64,000 nucleotides of DNA from a virus (IMGVR_UViG_3300028610_000426:19101-83100), one strand, 5' to 3'; shown: positions 4,527-48,542, counted from the first letter of the stretch. A program made the numbers and translations. Notes: generated by a model from the letters alone, not told the origin.

Positions 4527-5012
4527 ATGACTGACACCGAATATCAAAAGTACGTAGATGAGCTTTGGGTGATGTTGGATAAAGAACTGGTACACGAAAA
4601 GACGGCCATTGGTAAAGCCAAGTTGGTTTTTTTGATATTGGATGGTGTGACCGTCGAAGACCTTATGAGGGCTGGCATTGATCTTGGCCGTGCTCGTACA
4701 CTTATCTTTCAAAACTTCCTTACCAACAAATTCATTCGTCGGGTTGAGCGCCGGGTGTATGAGGTAACCAAAAAAGGTGCGAAAGAATTCAGGAAACCAC
4801 CCCGGAAGCGTGGACGCCCGACCAAGACTATCAAAGTTCCAGCGGGTCTCACGGTATCAACCCACACCAACCTTATGGATGCGCTTGCTGTAATGCGCCC
4901 CGTATTGAAGCGGATAGTAAAGCTTAATCCAACAACAGAACGTGAACCAATTCGATATCAAGCCAGATGTGCGCTTGTTGAAATTAACATGCTTATCGAA
5001 ACACTTCAGTAA
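4527..5012 (+). CDS. putative DNA-binding protein with AT-hook-like motif
   Basis: This 161-aa basic protein has a probable helical/winged-helix-like segment (residues 40-87) followed by R-K-R-G-R-P-T-K (about residues 92-99), which resembles an AT-hook. ATG 4527 follows AAAGGAGG by eight bases; an in-frame GTG at 4518 lies inside the ribosome binding site and is unlikely. It has its own promoter and terminator, so it is a single-gene unit. A role as an early regulator or nucleoid-binding protein is inference. Confidence 0.7.
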   Translation: MTDTEYQKYVDELWVMLDKELVHEKTAIGKAKLVFLILDGVTVEDLMRAGIDLGRARTLIFQNFLTNKFIRRVERRVYEVTKKGAKEFRKPPRKRGRPTKTIKVPAGLTVSTHTNLMDALAVMRPVLKRIVKLNPTTEREPIRYQARCALVEINMLIETLQ

Positions 5013-5027
5013 ATTCGGCCTCTAACA

Positions 5028-5061
5028 GGGAGAGGGTTAGCCTTCTGTTTGGCCCTCTCCC
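5028..5061 (+). terminator. intrinsic terminator-like hairpin
   Basis: GGGAGAGGG (5028-5036) pairs perfectly with CCCTCTCCC (5053-5061) over nine bases. The following sequence is AT-rich but lacks a strict T tract, so termination may be partial. Confidence 0.7.
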
Positions 5062-5090
5062 AGCTTAAAATTATTTAATAACATTTCCTG

Positions 5091-5145
5091 TTGAATCATA
5101 TATACTTAAGAGAGTATATATCATAGCCCTCTAAATTAGGGGGCT
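5091..5145 (+). promoter_or_regulatory. weak promoter and paired hairpins upstream of the 5173 gene
   Basis: TTGAAT (5091) lies 17 bases before GTATAT (5114), a weak promoter match. The same region contains a 9-bp inverted repeat (ATATATACT 5098-5106, AGTATATAT 5113-5121). A second hairpin follows (AGCCCTCT 5125-5132, AGGGGGCT 5138-5145, one mismatch). It could be an operator/leader for the phosphoesterase gene. Confidence 0.4.
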
Positions 5146-5172
5146 GTCCCTTATGAAACACAGGAGGTGTGC

Positions 5173-6351
5173 ATGACTGTAACGCCAGAGCCTCACAAAC
5201 GAAATGTTACAAATGGTAACCCATCTTATCAAGGACAGCGGGTTAGCAAGGAGCAACTCCACAAAAGAATATTGAAACTTAGAACTGAGGGATTGTCTTA
5301 TGATAAAATTGCTATTCAGTTAAGAAGTGAAGGTTATCGAATCAGTAAAAATACTGTAAGATATGTTTGTTATGAAGCTTCTGGGGGTAGCCCCGATCCT
5401 AAACACAAATCAACCAAGAAGCAACGGTCTAAGAAAAGTGTGGATAAAGATTGGAAGGATAAAAAGAAACCCCTAAACGTGGATACCACTATTAAATTAG
5501 AGGGACACGACCCCGGAAAATGTCCAGAAGAGCTTTTGAATGAAATCATTGCGAAGCAGAAGAAGGAGGGGATTTTTGATATAGATAAACCCCCTATCAA
5601 AATTACGACTACTCATCCAGTGGGGCTTTGTGCAATTTCTGATCTTCATCTAGGGAGTTCTGGAGTTAATTATGAATATCTGAAAGAAGTTGTCGAACTT
5701 ATTAATGACACACCCAACCTTTTCGTGGCTATTGGCGGAGACCTTATCGACAACTTCATCATTCAGAAATTGAACATTGCCACGGAGCAACGTGAGTTCA
5801 AGGTTGAAATGCAATACAAGTTTGTTGCTTATATTTTGGATATGTTGGCAGGGCGTGTGCTGTGGATGATTCGTGGTAACCATGAGGCATGGACAGAGCG
5901 CTATGCATTCGTGGACCAAATGGCAAAGTTCGCCACATGGAAGAATCTTCCGTATTACAAGGACGGGGGTATCGTCAAACTGGACATCAACGGAATTCGA
6001 TACAAGGTTCACCACCGTCATAAGTTCTGGGGGATGTCTAAACTGAATAGGCACAATGCCGGGAAGCGGATGTATGATTTTGGACAAGAGCCTTATGACA
6101 TTGGTATTCTTGAACATTTCCATGAAGGGAGCATAGAGAGCTTCCATAGGCATGATGAAAAGCGTATCTCTATCAATAGTGCTACCTTCAAAGAGAAAGA
6201 CCCATATGCTGAATCTTTGGGATACTATCACACGGGTATTGAAATTCCTGTAGCAATAATGTATCCTAATCAGAAGAAATTAGCTGTCATTGATGACATG
6301 GACACGGCCGCACTTACTTTAAGGGCAATGGCGGAAATGGAATGGAATTAA
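5173..6351 (+). CDS. metallophosphoesterase with N-terminal helix-turn-helix
   Basis: This 392-aa protein joins two domains. Residues about 24-66 form a resolvase-like helix-turn-helix (an E-G-L-S-Y-D-K-I-A-I-Q-L stretch followed by I-S-K-N-T-V-R). A lysine-rich linker leads to a calcineurin-like phosphoesterase from about residue 150. Its metal motifs are S-D-L-H-L-G, G-G-D-L-I-D-N, R-G-N-H-E, H-H-R-H-K and H-F-H-E, a complete set. It probably hydrolyses phosphodiester bonds in nucleic acid and is brought to DNA by the HTH, but the substrate is unknown. ATG 5173 is set by AGGAGGT five bases upstream. It lies between the polymerase and primase genes. Confidence 0.85.
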   Translation: MTVTPEPHKRNVTNGNPSYQGQRVSKEQLHKRILKLRTEGLSYDKIAIQLRSEGYRISKNTVRYVCYEASGGSPDPKHKSTKKQRSKKSVDKDWKDKKKPLNVDTTIKLEGHDPGKCPEELLNEIIAKQKKEGIFDIDKPPIKITTTHPVGLCAISDLHLGSSGVNYEYLKEVVELINDTPNLFVAIGGDLIDNFIIQKLNIATEQREFKVEMQYKFVAYILDMLAGRVLWMIRGNHEAWTERYAFVDQMAKFATWKNLPYYKDGGIVKLDINGIRYKVHHRHKFWGMSKLNRHNAGKRMYDFGQEPYDIGILEHFHEGSIESFHRHDEKRISINSATFKEKDPYAESLGYYHTGIEIPVAIMYPNQKKLAVIDDMDTAALTLRAMAEMEWN

Positions 6352-6390
6352 AGAGTCGTAAAAGTTGTAACAAAAAATGCCAACCTGTGA

Positions 6391-6431
6391 TATAAATAAT
6401 TTAAAAGGAGGCTGTGAAATATCTCACAGCC
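6391..6431 (+). promoter_or_regulatory. T4-type late promoter with a 5'-end hairpin
   Basis: TATAAATA at 6391-6398 resembles the T4 late -10 box. Transcripts would begin near 6404 and immediately contain an 8-bp hairpin (GGCTGTGA 6410-6417, TCACAGCC 6424-6431), which may protect the RNA 5' end. The gene at 6451 follows with its own ribosome binding site. Confidence 0.45.
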
Positions 6432-6450
6432 TATCACAAGGAGGCGTATT

Positions 6451-6579
6451 ATGTTAGAATTTCTCACAATGATGTCAGTCATCGCAATGATTTTTTGTGC
6501 GGCCACAGCATTCGTAGCGTTTATCTCCGGGGTGCTACTTAAAGTCGCACGAAAGATAGGGGAGATTATTAAGACATAA
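6451..6579 (+). CDS. small single-pass membrane protein
   Basis: This 42-aa protein is mostly one hydrophobic segment (about residues 5-31) followed by a short basic tail with several Lys/Arg residues. AAGGAGG lies seven to eight bases before the ATG. It would be made behind the putative late promoter at 6391. Function is unknown. Confidence 0.7.
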   Translation: MLEFLTMMSVIAMIFCAATAFVAFISGVLLKVARKIGEIIKT

Positions 6580-6596
6580 TCCCCAAGGAGGTTCGT

Positions 6597-7607
6597 TTGA
6601 GCCTGTATGAATATGATGTAAAGCAGATTCAGGAAAAGTATCTCGGATACATGAATCTCAAGGGACTGAAGCGGCATCACTCCGGAAAATGGAATTTCCG
6701 TTGTCCACTTTGCGGGGATTCCAAGCGTAATATCAACAAGAAGCGTGGTTGGTTTGAACCGGACATGAGAGTTTTTTCATGTTTCAATTGTGATCAGAGG
6801 GGCATATCATTTGAGAAATTTATGGAAATAGTACAACCCACTTTGCTTCATCAATACAAACAAGAGATTGGAGCGGCGTGGCTGGAGGACCGAGAGAAGA
6901 ATGGTCCCCAATTGCCGCCTGAAGTTCATATTCCAGAAGAGCAGATTGAGTTTGAAGAAAAAGTCAAGAAGTTTGAGATTGAGTTACCTAAAGGCACCGT
7001 ACCTGTCTGGGAATTACCAGAAGATCACCCTGTCCGTGTATATTTGACCGATAGACTTATCACCATGGAGATGTGTAAAGATCATGGTGTTTCCTTCTGT
7101 ATGGCTGAGAGAGGGGATTACCAACAACGAATGATCCTTCCTTTTGTTTGGAAGACGGAGAAGCGTATTTATGGATTCCAAGCTCGGAGGTTAGACGGTG
7201 ATGGGTATCCAAAGTATCTGACCAAAGTGTTGGATGGTCATCCCAAAATCTGGAACATGTTCAATGTTAATCATGATGGTACTGAGGTTGTGTATGTGAC
7301 AGAAGGTGTCATTGATGCTATGTTCTTATCTAATTCCATAGCATTGTGCGGTTCTGATTTTTCTGCTGAATATCAGAAGGCACTCAAGTCATGGAATTTT
7401 TGTTTTGTTTTCGACAACGATGAAACCGGCCGAAAGAAATCAATCAAGTTTGCTGAATTAGGATATAAGGTTTTTGTGTGGCCCCCAGATTGTCCGGCGA
7501 AAGATGTCAATATGGCTATTCAAATGGGGCTGAATATAGATTTTAAAACATCTTACAGGTCTTATAAGGGCGTTGAAGCAGTGGTGAGAATTAAACTAGG
7601 GAGGTAG
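6597..7607 (+). CDS. 61: DNA primase (DnaG/T4 gp61-like)
   Basis: This 336-aa primase should make RNA primers for lagging-strand synthesis, normally in complex with a replicative helicase that is not in this window. A zinc-binding domain has Cys36, Cys39, Cys62 and Cys65. The TOPRIM catalytic core shows V-T-E-G-V-I-D-A (about residues 229-236) and F-D-N-D-E-T-G (about 270). The size matches T4 gp61 (342 aa), with no fused helicase. The start is TTG 6597, fixed by AAGGAGGT five bases upstream; the next in-frame ATG lies inside the zinc-domain region. The deoxyribosyltransferase-like gene follows two bases after the stop. Confidence 0.9.
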   Translation: MSLYEYDVKQIQEKYLGYMNLKGLKRHHSGKWNFRCPLCGDSKRNINKKRGWFEPDMRVFSCFNCDQRGISFEKFMEIVQPTLLHQYKQEIGAAWLEDREKNGPQLPPEVHIPEEQIEFEEKVKKFEIELPKGTVPVWELPEDHPVRVYLTDRLITMEMCKDHGVSFCMAERGDYQQRMILPFVWKTEKRIYGFQARRLDGDGYPKYLTKVLDGHPKIWNMFNVNHDGTEVVYVTEGVIDAMFLSNSIALCGSDFSAEYQKALKSWNFCFVFDNDETGRKKSIKFAELGYKVFVWPPDCPAKDVNMAIQMGLNIDFKTSYRSYKGVEAVVRIKLGR

Positions 7608-14943: not shown

Positions 14944-15209
14944 GTGTAACATACCTGAAGTGGGAACAGGTTTGGTCCGTCTTCACGAAGTTGGCCGCCC
15001 GGAAAGGATACACCCAGCCAGACGGGGATGCGCTTGGATGTTACAATCCGGCTACTGGGGATTATATCAGACTTGGTAAAATAATGGGACACAATGTCAC
15101 CTTAATTGAGAAGGGGATATCACAAGTATTCCCTTTCTCCGTATTGGAAGAGTGGACTAAACGGAATGAAACGATTCAATACTTTCATAAACGACAAGAC
15201 ACTAATTGA
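14940..15209 (+). CDS. hypothetical protein
   Basis: This 89-aa protein was not recognised. GTG 14940 overlaps the regA stop (GTGA), and an in-frame ATG at 14889 lies inside regA without a ribosome binding site. Its end overlaps the tagged ART-like gene by 44 bases. Confidence 0.6.
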   Translation: MSVTYLKWEQVWSVFTKLAARKGYTQPDGDALGCYNPATGDYIRLGKIMGHNVTLIEKGISQVFPFSVLEEWTKRNETIQYFHKRQDTN

Positions 15210-16080
15210 TGAAGGACTGTCTGATACTCTATTCCATATAACTAACACTGGTAGTGCGGAAAGTATATTAAAATCGAACAAATTTATGTTGACACTAAGT
15301 TTGGGAACACCATCAGACGATACATCAAGGAAAAGCAAAAATAAGATATATTATTTCTCAACAGCGAGAACACCAAACGCACGTTATTTTGAGAGTATCG
15401 GCTACACTGGTTTATATTTTGAGTTGGATGGAAAAAAGTTAGGACAAAGGTATTCAGGAAAGACTGTGGATTATTGGGGTCCGGAATTTGGGAGACAAGC
15501 ATCTGAAGCAGAGGATCGTTTGTTTAGTACAAGTTCAACAATCCCAAACGCAATATCGTACATTAAAGCCATTCATGTGTTTTTTGATTTGGAAGATCAA
15601 AAATATATACATCAACAAGACTTGAAATCAATACGAAATATTTTGACCATCGCAAAACAGAAAAAAATTCCTATATATTTTTATGATAATGATAGGAACT
15701 GGAGAACCCGTAATATTAGAAAAACGTTCAATCCACTAAAGAGTGGACTGTTTGGGTCAACAGAACCATTAAGTATTAATATATATGCCGGAAGGAAAAG
15801 AAGAAACCCGTTCGATCCGTGGATAGAATTAGCACATAGTCCGGTTGCTAATGTGACAAGGTTAAGTAAAGATGGGCGTGAATTGTTGGACACCCTACAA
15901 CGTGGTTATAATTATGAGAGAGATCGGATAGATATTAAAAGAGGGTTGGAGAATGATATACATAATTATAAAGCCCGTGGCGGTTCTGATTCTCTGGTTA
16001 AGGCGATGAGACATTTAAAAACCACAAACGTTGAAGATTTTATTGAAAAAATATATAAGAGATGGAGTATCGCCCCATGA
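15166..16080 (+). CDS. capsid-tag-bearing ADP-ribosyltransferase-like protein
   Basis: This 304-aa protein starts Met-Lys-Arg-Phe-Asn-Thr-Phe-Ile with a possible I-D-E cleavage site at residues 14-16, like the tag of T4 internal proteins. The body shows L-F-H-I-T (about 22-26), I-Y-Y-F-S-T (about 61-66) and E-A-E-D-R-L-F-S (about 112-119). This His...Tyr...Glu order is used by PARP/DarT/KptA-type ADP-ribosyl transferases. T4 Alt is a packaged ADP-ribosyltransferase, which makes the combination coherent, but this is motif-level inference. The gene is AT-rich: two 60-base lines (15241, 15661) contain 19 and 15 G+C, against 29 in line 18841 of the SSB gene. The ribosome binding site is weak. Confidence 0.6.
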   Translation: MKRFNTFINDKTLIDEGLSDTLFHITNTGSAESILKSNKFMLTLSLGTPSDDTSRKSKNKIYYFSTARTPNARYFESIGYTGLYFELDGKKLGQRYSGKTVDYWGPEFGRQASEAEDRLFSTSSTIPNAISYIKAIHVFFDLEDQKYIHQQDLKSIRNILTIAKQKKIPIYFYDNDRNWRTRNIRKTFNPLKSGLFGSTEPLSINIYAGRKRRNPFDPWIELAHSPVANVTRLSKDGRELLDTLQRGYNYERDRIDIKRGLENDIHNYKARGGSDSLVKAMRHLKTTNVEDFIEKIYKRWSIAP

Positions 16081-16463
16081 AACGTTTTAACACCTTCGTA
16101 AATGAAATGTCGATGGGGGAAGTCCGGAGTCTTGAACAGAAGCTGGATAAGATGTTTGAGCCCTTCGGGGTTGATATTGTGTTCACCCGGCATGTTGTTA
16201 AAGACAGGCTTTTGACAGGCCAACGTGAGGGTGGTGTCACGGCTGATGAAATCCTTGATGTGTTCAAGCGATTCATCGCCCGGTATAAAGATAAGCTTAC
16301 CAAAAAGGAATGGGAAGCGGTCATCAAGGACGTGCGGACTAAATTGAATCTTCCGGTTACCTATAAGAAAGATGCTCTTGAAGGTGACATGGACATGATT
16401 GTCAAGACCATCATGAAGAAGCGAGACTTTAAGGGTGGCGGGAAAGTTTTGACAGTCAAATGA
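16077..16463 (+). CDS. capsid-tag-bearing protein of unknown function
   Basis: This 128-aa protein starts Met-Lys-Arg-Phe-Asn-Thr-Phe-Val-Asn-Glu, nearly the same tag as the preceding gene, with V-N-E as the possible cleavage site. The body contains F-T-R-H-V-V-K-D-R-L (about 40-49), G-G-V-T-A-D-E-I and, near the end, an M-K-K-R-D-F-K segment. I recall phage proteins with the same layout but no known function. ATG overlap (ATGA) couples it to the ART-like gene. Confidence 0.7.
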   Translation: MKRFNTFVNEMSMGEVRSLEQKLDKMFEPFGVDIVFTRHVVKDRLLTGQREGGVTADEILDVFKRFIARYKDKLTKKEWEAVIKDVRTKLNLPVTYKKDALEGDMDMIVKTIMKKRDFKGGGKVLTVK

Positions 16464-16873
16464 TAAAATTTACTGAATTCAGAGAAATTCTTCTTGAATA
16501 CGAAACTTTTAAGTTCGGGTTGATTCGGTATGATGTTGATAAAGCCAAACGTTGGATTCGTGCTAATCGTGATAAGGTTAAGATAACAAACATACCCACG
16601 AAAGATTTGGTGAAATGGTTATCCATACGGATTAAAGATTGGAAGAAGACTGGGGATAAAATGGGTAATTTGATGAGTATAGGAGTGGACCCCGAAAAAG
16701 CGGAAAAAACAAAATTTTCCGCCCCGGTCATTTTAGTAGATGATCCAGATTTAGGTGGAAGTATGGTCATTGATGGCTGGCACAGAATAGCCATGGCTGA
16801 TTATAAAGGTTGGAAACATGTTCCGGCTTATCACATAACAGACCCAGAAGTGGTCAAGTCTCTTAAGAATTAA
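16460..16873 (+). CDS. tagged protein with ParB/sulfiredoxin-like motif
   Basis: This 137-aa protein starts Met-Ile-Lys-Phe-Thr-Glu-Phe with an L-L-E site at residues 11-13, a variant of the capsid tag. The C-terminal half has M-V-I-D-G-W-H-R-I-A-M-A (about 103-114), then V-P-A-Y. This resembles the D-G-x-H-R motif of ParB/Srx-fold nucleases and ATPases. It is coupled to the upstream tagged gene by a 4-base overlap. Confidence 0.6.
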   Translation: MIKFTEFREILLEYETFKFGLIRYDVDKAKRWIRANRDKVKITNIPTKDLVKWLSIRIKDWKKTGDKMGNLMSIGVDPEKAEKTKFSAPVILVDDPDLGGSMVIDGWHRIAMADYKGWKHVPAYHITDPEVVKSLKN

Positions 16874-44457: not shown

Positions 44458-44679
44458 TTACATTCCGCCGGAACCAGACCCACTTAAATAAGCATCACCG
44501 TCTTTCATTGCTTTCGACAATACGCTGGTCGGTATTTTTCCACCACCACTAAGAACGGTGTTGGCTCCCTGTTTGCCGGTAATTTTATAACGTGCGGGTT
44601 TTACACCATTGATTTCTTTTTTAAGAATAATGTAAGACCCTGCGGTAAATTCGTTGAGTAACACATCTTCAAATTTCAT
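44458..44679 (-). CDS. tagged small protein (candidate capsid-packaged)
   Basis: This 73-aa protein starts Met-Lys-Phe-Glu-Asp-Val-Leu-Leu-Asn-Glu-Phe, with L-N-E as a likely prohead-protease site. The rest is beta-like with a G-S-G-S-G-G end. AAGGGGGT precedes the start. It is the last gene of the minus-strand late operon. Confidence 0.7.
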   Translation of the reverse strand: MKFEDVLLNEFTAGSYIILKKEINGVKPARYKITGKQGANTVLSGGGKIPTSVLSKAMKDGDAYLSGSGSGGM

Positions 44680-44692
44680 CTATAACCCCCTT

Positions 44693-45211
44693 CTATGATA
44701 CGTAGGCAATGACTTCAAATGTTCCGGAGTCCATCTTATGCCATGTCATCACGAACTGAGTATTGGTGAATGGGGTGAAGAATTTCACGCCTTTATAGTT
44801 AGTCTCTGTTTCTGTCGGGGCCAGAGGAACCAACATTTTCCCACTCTTGCCAGTGACGAATCCCTCCCACTCTGTGCTGTCTTCCTGTAGGATAACCAGC
44901 CCCACCCCATGAAGAGCTTTGATAATTTCTTTAATAGGAACGTTCGGGAAGTATGTTTGCTCCAGAGCCTTTTCCAGTGCCCGGTTACCCTTTTTCTTTA
45001 AGGCGCTTTTGATAGGGGTTTGGGTCATGGTTTCGATGGCGTTGGTGGCGTCAGACGGGGACATTTCTCGTAAAGATTTACCGTACCGTATGACTGCGGC
45101 CTTGTCCAGTATTTCCTGATACACCCAGTCCTGAACCCGTGCTAAACGCTTGGGAGGAACGTAAGGCATATGCCACCGTGTAGCTTCTGTGTAGAGTTTT
45201 CCAAAACTCAT
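44693..45211 (-). CDS. tagged protein (candidate capsid-packaged)
   Basis: This 172-aa protein starts Met-Ser-Phe-Gly-Lys-Leu-Tyr-Thr-Glu-Ala with Y-T-E-A as the site. The body is a basic helical part followed by a beta-rich part. TAATG couples it to the upstream gene. Unknown function. Confidence 0.7.
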   Translation of the reverse strand: MSFGKLYTEATRWHMPYVPPKRLARVQDWVYQEILDKAAVIRYGKSLREMSPSDATNAIETMTQTPIKSALKKKGNRALEKALEQTYFPNVPIKEIIKALHGVGLVILQEDSTEWEGFVTGKSGKMLVPLAPTETETNYKGVKFFTPFTNTQFVMTWHKMDSGTFEVIAYVS

Positions 45212-45495
45212 TAGTGCCTTCCCACCCAGCCAATGGCCAACTCACCAATAATCTTCTCCGGCTTCTCAGCGTTCTTTTTGTTGACAATAGCAATCTTTCC
45301 GCCCTTATAAGTGAGTAACCAGACAGGGGGTGCGGGGGGTTCTGTGTTAAGAAAGTAATCTTTACTCTCTTTGAACCCAAGAGATTTCAACGCCTCCCCA
45401 ACGTCCATGAATTTCTTTCCAGTCACGGCACGGGCTATCTTATCAATAATTTCCCAACCAGATGATTTTTCTGTTAGGGTGTTTTTGAATTTCAT
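45211..45495 (-). CDS. tagged protein (candidate capsid-packaged)
   Basis: This 94-aa protein starts Met-Lys-Phe-Lys-Asn-Thr-Leu-Thr-Glu-Lys-Ser with L-T-E as the site. The start is set by AGGAGAC; an in-frame ATG at 45594 has no binding site. The body has P-P-A-P-P-V-W-L-L and a short beta domain. Its tag shares K-N-T-L-x-E-K-S with the 45886 gene, suggesting duplication of the tag. Confidence 0.7.
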   Translation of the reverse strand: MKFKNTLTEKSSGWEIIDKIARAVTGKKFMDVGEALKSLGFKESKDYFLNTEPPAPPVWLLTYKGGKIAIVNKKNAEKPEKIIGELAIGWVGRH

Positions 45496-45553
45496 TGGCG
45501 TCTCCTGCAAGCCCATAGATGAATTTTGTACATGAGGTCCGTTAACCATTCCA

Positions 45554-45886
45554 TTAATATGCCCCGTGAAATTTTTTATACTGAACCGGGTCAAGGTCTT
45601 CTTTTACTTTGGTAAAAAATGTTTCCCGTACTATGGCACAATACTTGCTAAGTTCTGGGGGCATATACCCCTCAATGTCAGCAATGTCAGCAATGTTTTT
45701 GAAAATCCGCTCGTAATTGGTGTATAGTCTGTAGCTAACATCTATCCATCCGGATTGGGTAGTTACTCTCATCAACCGGGCTCCTTCTATAAGAGCTTCA
45801 GTGTGATGGTTGATATCAGTAAGTTCTGCAATTTCCTTTACTGTTTTGTTAAAATAAGCAGACTTTTCAATCAATGTATTCTTCAT
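45554..45886 (-). CDS. tagged protein (candidate capsid-packaged)
   Basis: This 110-aa helical protein starts Met-Lys-Asn-Thr-Leu-Ile-Glu-Lys-Ser with L-I-E as the site. AAGGAGG lies five to six bases upstream of ATG 45886. Unlike its neighbours it has its own sigma70-like promoter at 45945-45917. Confidence 0.7.
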   Translation of the reverse strand: MKNTLIEKSAYFNKTVKEIAELTDINHHTEALIEGARLMRVTTQSGWIDVSYRLYTNYERIFKNIADIADIEGYMPPELSKYCAIVRETFFTKVKEDLDPVQYKKFHGAY

Positions 45887-45916
45887 GACTACCTCCTTGG
45901 TTATCATCTCAAATTC

Positions 45917-45945
45917 ACTATAACCATTTATTAGGAGGTTGTCAA
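45917..45945 (-). promoter_or_regulatory. sigma70-like promoter inside the late operon
   Basis: On the minus strand, TTGACA (45945-45940) and TATAGT (45922-45917) are 17 bases apart with the GGTTATAGTGAA context of the early family. It would transcribe the genes from 45886 leftwards early in infection. Confidence 0.72.
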
Positions 45946-45948
45946 GAA

Positions 45949-46251
45949 TTATAGTTTTACTTGACCCGTCTTGTAAGCGTTCCACACAGCATCATAATAC
46001 ATCTTTAAATGTCCTTGTTTGGATGAGGCAGTGTTGTTCAGTCCTTCCAGAGCGCCAAGAATGGCCTCCTGTTGTTTAGGGGATACAAGGGCTCCAAAAA
46101 TATCTTGGAAAATATCTGTGATATCCCTCATGGCATCAAAGGCATCATAATTCCCTCGGTTCTTGAGATACCATGACAGATATTCCCCCAGTTTTTTCTT
46201 CAAGAGGGATGGACCGCTGACGATTTCGTTCAGGACTTTTTCGAATTTCAT
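45949..46251 (-). CDS. tagged protein (candidate capsid-packaged)
   Basis: This 100-aa helical protein starts Met-Lys-Phe-Glu-Lys-Val-Leu-Asn-Glu-Ile with L-N-E as the site. AAGGAG precedes the ATG. No domain recognised. Confidence 0.7.
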   Translation of the reverse strand: MKFEKVLNEIVSGPSLLKKKLGEYLSWYLKNRGNYDAFDAMRDITDIFQDIFGALVSPKQQEAILGALEGLNNTASSKQGHLKMYYDAVWNAYKTGQVKL

Positions 46252-46253
46252 GG

Positions 46254-46547
46254 CTACTCCTTGTTATCACCCTTATCATCACCGCCGCCGGAAACAGCAT
46301 TGGCTACAGAGGTGAAAGCATCGGAAAGCTTGTCCATGAATTTGGTGGCCAGAGGATCATCACTGGCGGCCAACCCCTTGAGAAGTTGTACGCCTTTCAT
46401 CTGCTCTTTATTGTCACCCTTGAAATCGGTATCGCTGAGGCTTTTGATAACGCCCTTTATATCAACCGCTTCTTCGATAATCTTTTCCTTGGCACCCTTT
46501 TCATTCGCCTCAGTAATAAGATTTTGGATATCTTTTACGCTCCGCAT
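46254..46547 (-). CDS. tagged protein (candidate capsid-packaged)
   Basis: This 97-aa protein starts Met-Arg-Ser-Val-Lys-Asp-Ile-Gln-Asn-Leu-Ile-Thr-Glu-Ala-Asn with I-T-E-A as the site, the best match to a T4 gp21 cleavage sequence. The body is acidic and ends in a Gly/Asp/Lys-rich tail. Confidence 0.68.
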   Translation of the reverse strand: MRSVKDIQNLITEANEKGAKEKIIEEAVDIKGVIKSLSDTDFKGDNKEQMKGVQLLKGLAASDDPLATKFMDKLSDAFTSVANAVSGGGDDKGDNKE

Positions 46548-46558
46548 AACTGTCTCCC

Positions 46559-46831
46559 TTATTTGTTAATCAGTTTACTGATAGAATCTTCCAATTCTTT
46601 TACAGCAAATTTTACATCCCCATCTTCTGTTAATGCTGTATAATAATCACCGGATTGTTTTACTGGAGATTTTTTCATTCCTCTCAGGATGGATATAAGT
46701 TTCCCGTTTTTCCATACTCCCTTATATTGTTTCCCGTCCAGAATAATGGAGCCTTTACCTTTACCTTTGGAATAAGAGGAAATCTTAACAGAAACCACAA
46801 CCTCTGTTATATATTCTTGGAATCTCTTCAT
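46559..46831 (-). CDS. tagged basic beta protein (candidate capsid-packaged)
   Basis: This 90-aa protein starts Met-Lys-Arg-Phe-Gln-Glu-Tyr-Ile-Thr-Glu-Val with I-T-E as the site. The body has a K-G-K-G-K-G run and short beta strands, so it could bind DNA. ATGA overlap with the upstream gene. Confidence 0.7.
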   Translation of the reverse strand: MKRFQEYITEVVVSVKISSYSKGKGKGSIILDGKQYKGVWKNGKLISILRGMKKSPVKQSGDYYTALTEDGDVKFAVKELEDSISKLINK

Positions 46832-47145
46832 ACGAAAATCCTTTCAAGACGTTTCTGGAGATCGGCCCTTCCAGATACTTGATTGAAGTTTGCCAGAAGA
46901 CCTCTCATATATTCCCGTGCCTTCGTGATACTCCAATTATTTAAACTTCCCCCAGCCGTGGACAAGATATCCCTATCCGGATTATATGTGAGTAGAGCGT
47001 TGCTCATTACTTTTTTGAGATGGACCACATCTCCACCCTTCATATCAAGTGCGGCTATCATATCCTGAAAAACAGACTTTGCTTCAGTGGACCATTTGAC
47101 GGATACTTTAGGCCAAGTTTCTTCCAGAACGTCCCCGAATCTCAT
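46828..47145 (-). CDS. tagged helical protein (candidate capsid-packaged)
   Basis: This 105-aa protein starts Met-Arg-Phe-Gly-Asp-Val-Leu-Glu-Glu-Thr with L-E-E as the site. The TAATGA junction with the upstream structural gene sets ATG 47145. The body is helical and basic. Confidence 0.7.
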   Translation of the reverse strand: MRFGDVLEETWPKVSVKWSTEAKSVFQDMIAALDMKGGDVVHLKKVMSNALLTYNPDRDILSTAGGSLNNWSITKAREYMRGLLANFNQVSGRADLQKRLERIFV

Positions 47146-47924
47146 TACGGTGTATATGCTACACACTCTACAATGTGAGCATCCAAATCAATGGATTGAA
47201 TGATAGAAGTATCAAGACCGTTATCATCTTGAACAGTCTCACCTTCAATGGATTGAATGATAGAAGTATCAAGACCATCATCATCTTGAACAGTTTCGCC
47301 ATCTTCAAACTTTCCGGTTAATACGGTCACGGTAATATCATTTACGTTAATCGCATCAATAGTTGCTGTGGCTCCTGATGTTAATCCGGTAAGGATATCT
47401 GATACAGCATGACCGAGAGCATCATCAACCGCAAGTGTTACAGTGTCTTCAAACACTCCTGACGTAACAGTAACGGTAATATCGTTCCCGTCAATCGCAT
47501 CAATAACTCCTGTAGCTCCTGATGTTAATCCAGTAAGGGTATCTAATACAGCATGAACGGAGGCATTGTCTACCGTAAGTGTTACAATTTCGCTGGTTAC
47601 AGTAACTCGTACAAACGTTTCAGGAGGATAAGTTTCAACAGGGATACGTTTTGTTGTATCGATAGCAACAATAACCGGGGCGGCAAGTATACTTACCCAC
47701 CCACTTAATAGACCAACGTAAACCTCAATATCATCAACGTTTATGGCCCCGTCCCCAACTGCTGAAACATACAACAACATTTCTTGTTTACCACCTTGAG
47801 CAATTTTCCGAACAATCCCAGCACCATCAGGCACACGCCGCTCAACACCCAGAGGTCTGGTTTGACCTTTACGGAACAGAACTATGGCTCTGTTAACTTC
47901 TCCAGTGTCAGACTGTAAAGCCAT
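47145..47924 (-). CDS. virion decoration/fibre-like protein with internal repeats
   Basis: This 259-aa protein has an N-terminal domain of about 115 residues homologous to the neighbouring 126-aa protein. A repeat region follows. Two copies of about 48 residues contain L-T-G-L-T-S-G-A-T, and two 19-residue copies begin G-E-T-V-Q-D-D. The T-S-G-A-T pattern is common in phage structural proteins. It is likely a virion surface or neck protein. The 19-residue repeat corresponds to a 57-bp tandem repeat in DNA. Confidence 0.6.
   Translation of the reverse strand: MALQSDTGEVNRAIVLFRKGQTRPLGVERRVPDGAGIVRKIAQGGKQEMLLYVSAVGDGAINVDDIEVYVGLLSGWVSILAAPVIVAIDTTKRIPVETYPPETFVRVTVTSEIVTLTVDNASVHAVLDTLTGLTSGATGVIDAIDGNDITVTVTSGVFEDTVTLAVDDALGHAVSDILTGLTSGATATIDAINVNDITVTVLTGKFEDGETVQDDDGLDTSIIQSIEGETVQDDNGLDTSIIQSIDLDAHIVECVAYTP
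47188..47301 (-). repeat. 57-bp tandem repeat, two copies
   Basis: Two near-identical 57-base units (beginning TCAATGGATTG at 47188 and 47245 on the plus strand) encode the duplicated 19-residue motif of the structural gene. They differ at only a few third-position bases, indicating a recent duplication. Confidence 0.8.
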
Positions 47925-47942
47925 TATTACTTCCTCCAGATA

Positions 47943-48323
47943 TTACGGGGTGACAGGGGCAAATTCTATTCTATGATCAAACAACGCCCCATCCATAGTA
48001 ATACGGACATGTGTCTCTGTAGGATATGTTTCGATCAATCTTCGAATTGAGATATCTGCGTCAATAGTAACCGGGGCCGCAAGTAAACTTACCCAAGACT
48101 GGGTAGCTGACACGTAGACTTCGATGTCATCAAGGTCTACTGTAACAGCCGGATCAGCGTTTGTAATATAGAGCGCAACTTGTTGTGACCCACCCATTGC
48201 CTTTTTACGAACAACAGTGCTCCCATCCGGCATACGTTTTTCCAGTGGATCAGGAGCCGTAGGAGATTTGCGGAATAATACAGTTAAAGCGGTAACTTCA
48301 CCGGTATCGGAAAGTAGAGGCAT
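47943..48323 (-). CDS. virion structural protein, paralogue of the 47145-47924 N-domain
   Basis: This 126-aa protein aligns with the first domain of its neighbour. Shared landmarks are S-D-T-G-E-V near residue 5, V-L-F-R-K near 15, P-D-G near 32, D-D-I-E-V-Y-V near 66 and S-x-L-A-A-P-V near 79. It lacks the repeat region. A decoration or neck role is inferred from the late operon. Confidence 0.6.
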   Translation of the reverse strand: MPLLSDTGEVTALTVLFRKSPTAPDPLEKRMPDGSTVVRKKAMGGSQQVALYITNADPAVTVDLDDIEVYVSATQSWVSLLAAPVTIDADISIRRLIETYPTETHVRITMDGALFDHRIEFAPVTP

Positions 48324-48325
48324 TA

Positions 48326-48496
48326 TTAATCTTTCTGGCGACTAAGAAAATCTGTTGCTTCAGCAATAAGGTCAGACTTCCGCTCATTCTTTTTCGCCTG
48401 TTTTTCTTCACGCTTCTCCTTGAGTTTATCCTTATCCCAATCACCATCCATGGCAGACTGAACAAGGGCTCTCAGTTCTTCGTAGCTTGCTTTCAT
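48326..48496 (-). CDS. small charged helical protein
   Basis: This 56-aa protein starts Met-Lys-Ala-Ser-Tyr-Glu-Glu-Leu and is Lys/Glu-rich and helical. ATAGGAGAC sets ATG 48496. It is the first gene behind the minus-strand late promoter, about 30 bases from the expected start of transcription. Confidence 0.7.
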   Translation of the reverse strand: MKASYEELRALVQSAMDGDWDKDKLKEKREEKQAKKNERKSDLIAEATDFLSRQKD

Positions 48497-48534: not shown

Positions 48535-48542
48535 TATTTATA
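48535..48542 (-). promoter_or_regulatory. T4-type late promoter for the minus-strand block
   Basis: On the minus strand TATAAATA (48542-48535) is followed by CTTAAAAGAACTATAC. This is the best late box in the window and the same TATAAATACTTAAAA string as at 3410. It lies upstream of eleven co-directed genes. Confidence 0.75.

Follow-up and report, generated by a model that had tools for sequence, protein, structure and literature searches.

Why should proteins with unrelated bodies begin alike? In the window analysed here, a stretch of 64,000 nucleotides (bases 19101-83100) from a viral IMG/VR fragment of 83.1 kb, eight contiguous genes on the minus strand and three on the plus strand (starting at 15166, 16077 and 16460) encode a similar short N-terminus. 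The original prediction was that these N-termini are capsid-targeting tags on injected effectors, and all eleven open reading frames were present at the starts it had given. The gene content indicates that the fragment is a deeply diverged member of the T4 superfamily. Its replication genes include a gp43 DNA polymerase about 33% identical to those of cyanophages, gp44, gp62, a gp32-type SSB, UvsX and a primase. Across the whole record, 176 genes were called with a simple purpose-written codon-bias caller; 165 lie on the plus strand, and the remaining eleven form a single minus-strand run at 44458-48496. The first 19.1 kb of the record held no recognisable head genes. A gp21-type prohead protease (PF03420), looked for outside the window, was not found anywhere in the 83-kb record, but it was present in the records of relatives. 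The head module lies outside the fragment.

Form of the N-terminal tag and its match to T4

The tags are 7-16 residues long and follow the form M-[KR]-x-F-x-x-h-h-x-E, with some variation in length. The proposal of a single tag on eleven proteins was correct as to the common pattern, but two or three sub-types were distinguished within the phage, namely MKRFxxFxxE, MKFxxxLxE and longer IPI-like forms with an ITE, LLE or IDE end. Several of the cut-like sites carry Val, Tyr or another hydrophobic residue in place of Leu or Ile.

The capsid-targeting sequence (CTS) and its use in loading varied proteins have already been described (PMC9026906). In the T4 IPIII tag, MKTYQEFIAE, residues 4 and 7 drive targeting, and residues 8 and 10 processing (PMC9026906). 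Two of the tags in the window, MKRFQEYITE and MKRFNTFVNE, match this sequence in register, with aromatic residues at positions 4 and 7, a hydrophobic residue at 8 and Glu at 10. In these two tags the predicted likeness to T4 held at all four mapped residues, and the tag profile also transferred between the phages, as follows.

A simple composite test asked for Lys or Arg within two residues, Phe within six and a hydrophobic-x-Glu site by residue 17. It was passed by 8 of the 11 tagged genes and by 2 of the 165 others, with criteria drawn from the tags themselves. Therefore, two transfer tests with PSSMs were run. When the PSSM was built from the eleven tags alone, T4 IPII and IPIII ranked 2 and 3 among 263 T4 genes. 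The external PSSM was trained only on the tags of other phages, T4 included, with none from the studied phage. It placed the eleven at ranks 1-5, 9, 14, 15, 20, 42 and 74 among the 176 genes (nine in the top 20), and the block of eight was set apart from the 165 others (Mann-Whitney P=3.8e-6). The two tags that failed this PSSM, MRFGDVLEE of gene 46828-47145 and MSFGKLYTE of gene 44693-45211, are weakly supported. A scan of the genome with its own tag profile, as originally proposed, gave leave-one-out ranks of 1, 2, 3, 4, 5, 7, 9, 14, 16, 20 and 35 among 176 genes. Rank 6 in this profile was a gene starting with MRFNEAVQE (L002:8101-8478, plus strand), a further possible tag in the same phage; another is MKIPSWLQKQLTFVLTE (L002:18306-18812, plus strand).

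Similar N-termini might also arise by chance, through a compositional bias toward MK, F and E, or by shared ancestry, through recent duplication of gene starts. MKxF starts are common, and unsupervised clustering within this genome gave a modest excess: internal windows formed 7-11 pairs and the N-termini 24. However, chance was disfavoured by the window-tag PSSM in T4 and by the external PSSM in the own genome, under which the contiguous block gave the P value above. The same codon was used in identical tag columns at a frequency of 0.49, versus 0.46 expected from codon usage. Because synonymous codons were so near this expectation, the tag is taken to be maintained as a protein signal, and recent duplication of gene starts was likewise disfavoured. 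We regard either origin as very unlikely.

The T4 gene that scored highest with the window-tag profile was gp61.1 (NC_000866 18966-19130, 54 aa, starting MKTFKEFIKE/DMVAG), which clusters with IPI-III. It is a candidate for an unrecognised T4 internal protein.

The minus-strand operon and the tagged bodies

Table 1. Features of the window and tagged arrays in other phages (window positions unless an accession is given; / as in the LIAE/A site)
Feature	Position	Strand	Tag (position)	Remarks
T4-late-type promoter octamer TATAAATA	48535-48542	-		upstream of the sole minus-strand operon
First operon gene	48326-48496	-		56 aa, charged, contains LIAE/A; family match none
Untagged operon gene	47943-48323	-		126 aa, paralogue of 47145-47924; family match none
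Untagged operon gene	47145-47924	-		259 aa; weak matches to phage structural families
Tagged gene 1	46828-47145	-	MRFGDVLEE (47119-47145)	body 96 aa, pI 9.8, orphan; weaker tag
Tagged gene 2	46559-46831	-	MKRFQEYITE (46802-46831)	body 80 aa, pI 9.8
Tagged gene 3	46254-46547	-	MRSVKDIQNLITE (46509-46547)	body 84 aa, acidic
Tagged gene 4	45949-46251	-	MKFEKVLNE (46225-46251)	body 91 aa, pI 8.9
Tagged gene 5	45554-45886	-	MKNTLIE (45866-45886)	body 103 aa, pI 6.3
Tagged gene 6	45211-45495	-	MKFKNTLTE (45469-45495)	body 85 aa, pI 9.6
Tagged gene 7	44693-45211	-	MSFGKLYTE (45185-45211)	body 163 aa, pI 9.2; weaker tag
Tagged gene 8	44458-44679	-	MKFEDVLLNE (44650-44679)	body 63 aa, pI 9.9
Tagged protein, predicted ADP-ribosyltransferase fold	15166-16080	+	MKRFNTFINDKTLIDE (15166-15213)	E16 invariant in 17 aligned sequences; D10
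Tagged PBECR-type nuclease candidate	16077-16463	+	MKRFNTFVNE (16077-16106)	H39, T111 invariant
Tagged protein with ParB-like DGWHR motif	16460-16873	+	MIKFTEFREILLE (16460-16498)	weak
Slickus01 array	OQ508957, 86.7-93.3 kb		MKIDxLYESLLEE	nine adjacent genes
L041 array			MISFKxFLxE	about nine genes
L031 array			MKYIKxYEQFLNE	six genes
L048 array	IMGVR_UViG_3300047994_000087		MSRAxxLLE	about ten genes
L028 array			MKTFKxFKxELxE	directly after gp53/gp6-like baseplate genes (recognised by eye)

The late promoter proposed ahead of the minus-strand block exists as a sequence, 38 nt from the first operon gene, but it is supportive only, because six such octamers occur in the window versus 2.9 expected. 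The first gene encodes a possible head-core component, and the product of 47943-48323 is a probable virion protein. The matches of 47145-47924 were to phrog_358 (2e-6) and phrog_697 (head/structural, 3e-6), and structural genes likely stand at the start of the operon. These last two genes (47145-48323, minus strand) are an adjacent paralogue pair near the start of the putative late operon, and both products start with SDTGEV. Shine-Dalgarno sequences were recognisable at most starts in the block, and the starts at 46831 and 47145 sit on overlapping stop/start codons.

The bodies behind the tags are single and small, at 63-288 aa; most matched no family, and no similarity was found between them, in agreement with the original description. 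After removal of the tag, 9 of the 11 have a pI above 8.5 (8.9-9.9), against 56 of 165 other genes (P=0.003), whose median pI is 6.1; one tagged body is clearly acidic. The eight block bodies gave no Pfam, PHROG or NCBIfam family, no relatives by tblastn in phages, and none in 779 kb of loci around homologues; the largest of them also had no relatives by tblastn in viral contigs. By these searches they are orphans.

The plus-strand bodies could be assigned further. An AF2 run of 15166 from the single sequence gave a pLDDT of 37, and the model reported here uses a 17-row alignment (pLDDT 79.6, with tag residues 1-15 below 50). Its top PDB matches were DarT (5.9e-4) and Tpt1 (1.2e-3), at prob 1.00 and with low TM-scores. 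DarT and Tpt1 are enzymes of the ADP-ribosyltransferase superfamily. Because the E-values were near 1e-3 and the TM-scores low, the assignment stays at the level of the fold: the model is that of an ADP-ribosyltransferase (ART) fold, DarT/Tpt1-like, with a predicted activity. In the 17 aligned sequences, H24, T26 and E116 are invariant, and R68 and E114 nearly so. Searches of PDB sequences with queries A1 and A2 gave nothing convincing. A query of 15166 plus 16460 matched 38 phage records, most or all of which are explained by the 15166 body.

The 15166 tag begins with MKRFNTFIND, in which residue 10 is Asp. Further along it contains another site, LIDE16, and all 17 aligned sequences have its Glu. 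In T4, Asp at position 10 stops processing and leaves targeting intact. Given both residues, the protein would probably be cut at residue 16, like the long tag of T4 IPI.

Homologues of the 16077 body occur in Melnitz, phiM12, the immuto phages and L044, and H39 and T111 do not vary across the 4 homologues compared. PBECR nucleases have a His in the N-terminal helix and a C-terminal Thr or Ser. There was no Pfam match, and a PBECR-type nuclease is the probable assignment. The 16460 body matched phrog_17560 (6e-4) and the ParB-like phrog_723 (0.26), and is weakly ParB-like. No late promoter was seen upstream of 15166, which we counted against the capsid-targeting reading.

Phage-specific tag arrays in other phages

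Through homologues of the 15166 ART body, we reached arrays of tagged genes in other phages, each with a tag sequence of its own (Table 1). The MSRAxxLLE tag of L048 is possibly a variant of the head address without an aromatic residue. Some array bodies match ART-PolyVal. For tags picked by eye, the mean similarity was 24.9 within a phage, between tags on unrelated bodies, and 12.1 between phages, on homologous bodies; 0 of 2000 permutations reached this difference. A neighbour test was added because the earlier clustering tests used such eye-picked tags. In this test, genes were chosen by position only, and every gene on the same strand as an ART gene and no more than 4 kb from it was included. 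The N-terminus of the own-locus ART was recognised in 37 of 168 neighbours, versus 5.2 expected with ARTs from other loci; the window itself supplied only one of these matches, which was counted against the capsid-targeting reading.

Homologous bodies other than ARTs also bear the local tag. The 16077-type body of L044 begins with the local tag MITFKDFILKE, and a third body type, compared by eye, starts with MNFNFLYESMLNE, MKHIKLFEEFVFE, MIKLKQILNTLTE or MTRARDILSSINE across four phages. Synonymous-codon agreement in the arrays was about at expectation in L031 and L028, and slightly above it in L041 and L048. The one clear excess was in Slickus01, where the ARTs look like recent duplicates.

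The S77 gp21-type prohead protease (PF03420) was present in Slickus01, in G001 and in 5 of the 8 IMG/VR records with ART homologues; the other three records are 31.6, 91 and 143 kb in size. Near the gp21 gene of G001 (L008-L013, 115.9 kb), two tag sub-families were noted, MKTFKEFxxE (with MKRFKDFLAE) and MKGxxIFxE (five genes). The ART homologues of Dickeya JA29 and Rhizobium N46 had no tag, so a phage can make use of this body without packaging it. JA29 (L018) has two adjacent tagless copies of the ART body at 5004-6766, which suggests that they are used unpackaged in that phage.

Interpretation and comparison with known systems

Taken together, the match in register to T4, the protease of the relatives and the classes of the bodies best support the reading first proposed, and we consider it likely that the tags are T4-type capsid-targeting sequences on effectors that are made late, packaged, cleaved and injected. 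The eight-gene block would be expressed late from the minus-strand operon, and the short N-terminus would dock each protein onto the prohead core. A gp21-type prohead protease would cut after the terminal Glu of the h-x-E site and free a small, mostly basic mature protein, which would stay beside the DNA inside the head and enter the host at infection. The plus-strand trio (ART fold, PBECR candidate and ParB-like candidate) would bear the same address. Such an address would be separable from its cargo and specific to the head core and protease of each phage, and for this reason unrelated cargoes would share a tag within a phage while homologous cargoes would be tagged differently between phages. 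The bodies that could be assigned fall in classes known among injected phage proteins (ART, probable PBECR and probable ParB). The heterogeneity of the tags within the phage and the two weak tags in the block were counted against this reading, as were the one clearly acidic body, the failure to find a protease gene in the 83-kb record and the tagless ART homologues.

The tag might instead deliver head-core or structural assembly factors to the prohead, where they would be cleaved without ever being injected as effectors. The likely structural genes that open the operon fit this explanation, as does the lack of an effector-like domain in the block bodies, and T4 IPIII also influences head shape (PMC9026906). 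However, the ART-fold, PBECR-like, ParB-like and ART-PolyVal bodies have no assembly function, and the bodies differ completely from phage to phage, unlike core assembly proteins. We consider assembly factors unlikely. A short amphipathic N-terminus is also able to bind other surfaces, and cleavage here is something that we infer, so the sequence could be an uncleaved docking or localisation signal for a site other than the head, such as a membrane or an infection compartment. Several observations make this very unlikely: the tag and the T4 CTS agree in sequence, in register and in their terminal Glu, E16 is invariant in the 17 aligned ARTs although it lies ahead of the well-ordered fold, and the gp21-type protease co-occurs in relatives.

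If the tagged proteins are injected effectors, their function would be directed against the host or its defences. Injected proteins work ahead of any phage gene expression, which makes them prime candidates for acting on first-line host defences. T4 IPI acts against GmrSD (PMC3012670), and IPIII is required on strain ECOR17 (PMC9391042). Since T4 internal proteins counter host defences, a role in anti-defence or early take-over is likely here as well. Since their bodies have nothing in common, injected proteins are difficult to detect. With a tag that is recognisable and specific to the phage, they can be sought by profile scan, and this nominates dozens of effectors that have yet to be studied, among them a DarT/Tpt1-like family of ADP-ribosyltransferases with multiple copies in cultured phages. 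It also becomes possible to test in the cultured phage Slickus01 whether tag, head core and protease co-evolve. More broadly, we lean toward the view that, in T4-superfamily phages and in large phages related to them, capsid-targeting tags generally serve as an address code specific to each phage. A phage would keep a tag of its own on its injected effectors, which would form an exchangeable array; the eight orphans in one putative late operon would be an example. Cargo acquired from another phage must then be re-tagged, and the repertoire of injected effectors could be read from the tag sequence alone.

Both the CTS (PMC9026906) and polyvalent effector domains (PMC5512222) are known already; in the open-licence literature, where the T4 CTS concept was found, we did not find arrays of single-domain effectors with phage-specific tags described. 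In SPN3US, two diverged ejection-protein paralogues have a common N-terminus (PMC5694885). SPN3US and phiKZ-type ejection proteins are likewise head proteins cleaved by a prohead protease, but their propeptides mostly exceed 100 residues, compared with the 7-16 residue tags here. The polyvalent proteins of Iyer et al. 2017 (PMC5512222) share the ART, PBECR and ParB-like domain types and are predicted to be co-injected with DNA. However, they are large and multidomain, with two or more effector domains per polypeptide, whereas here each tagged protein has a single domain behind an address tag of its own. The array of Alishewanella phage Slickus01 also consists of adjacent tagged genes with ART and other bodies, in the presence of an S77 protease; its tag sequence and non-ART bodies are different, and its genes are annotated as hypothetical only. 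T4 Alt resembles the 15166 protein in its short N-terminal propeptide and ART-superfamily cargo, but the 15166 body folds like DarT/Tpt1 in the model and had no match to the Alt family. With T4 IPI-IPIII, the proteins described here share an N-terminal tag (10-19 residues in T4) with aromatic or hydrophobic residues at positions 4 and 7 and a Glu at the cut site (a predicted one here), small, basic and unrelated bodies, and a T4-like phage. They differ in bodies unrelated to the T4 internal proteins, in having several tag sub-types, and in the eight tagged genes carried by one putative late operon.
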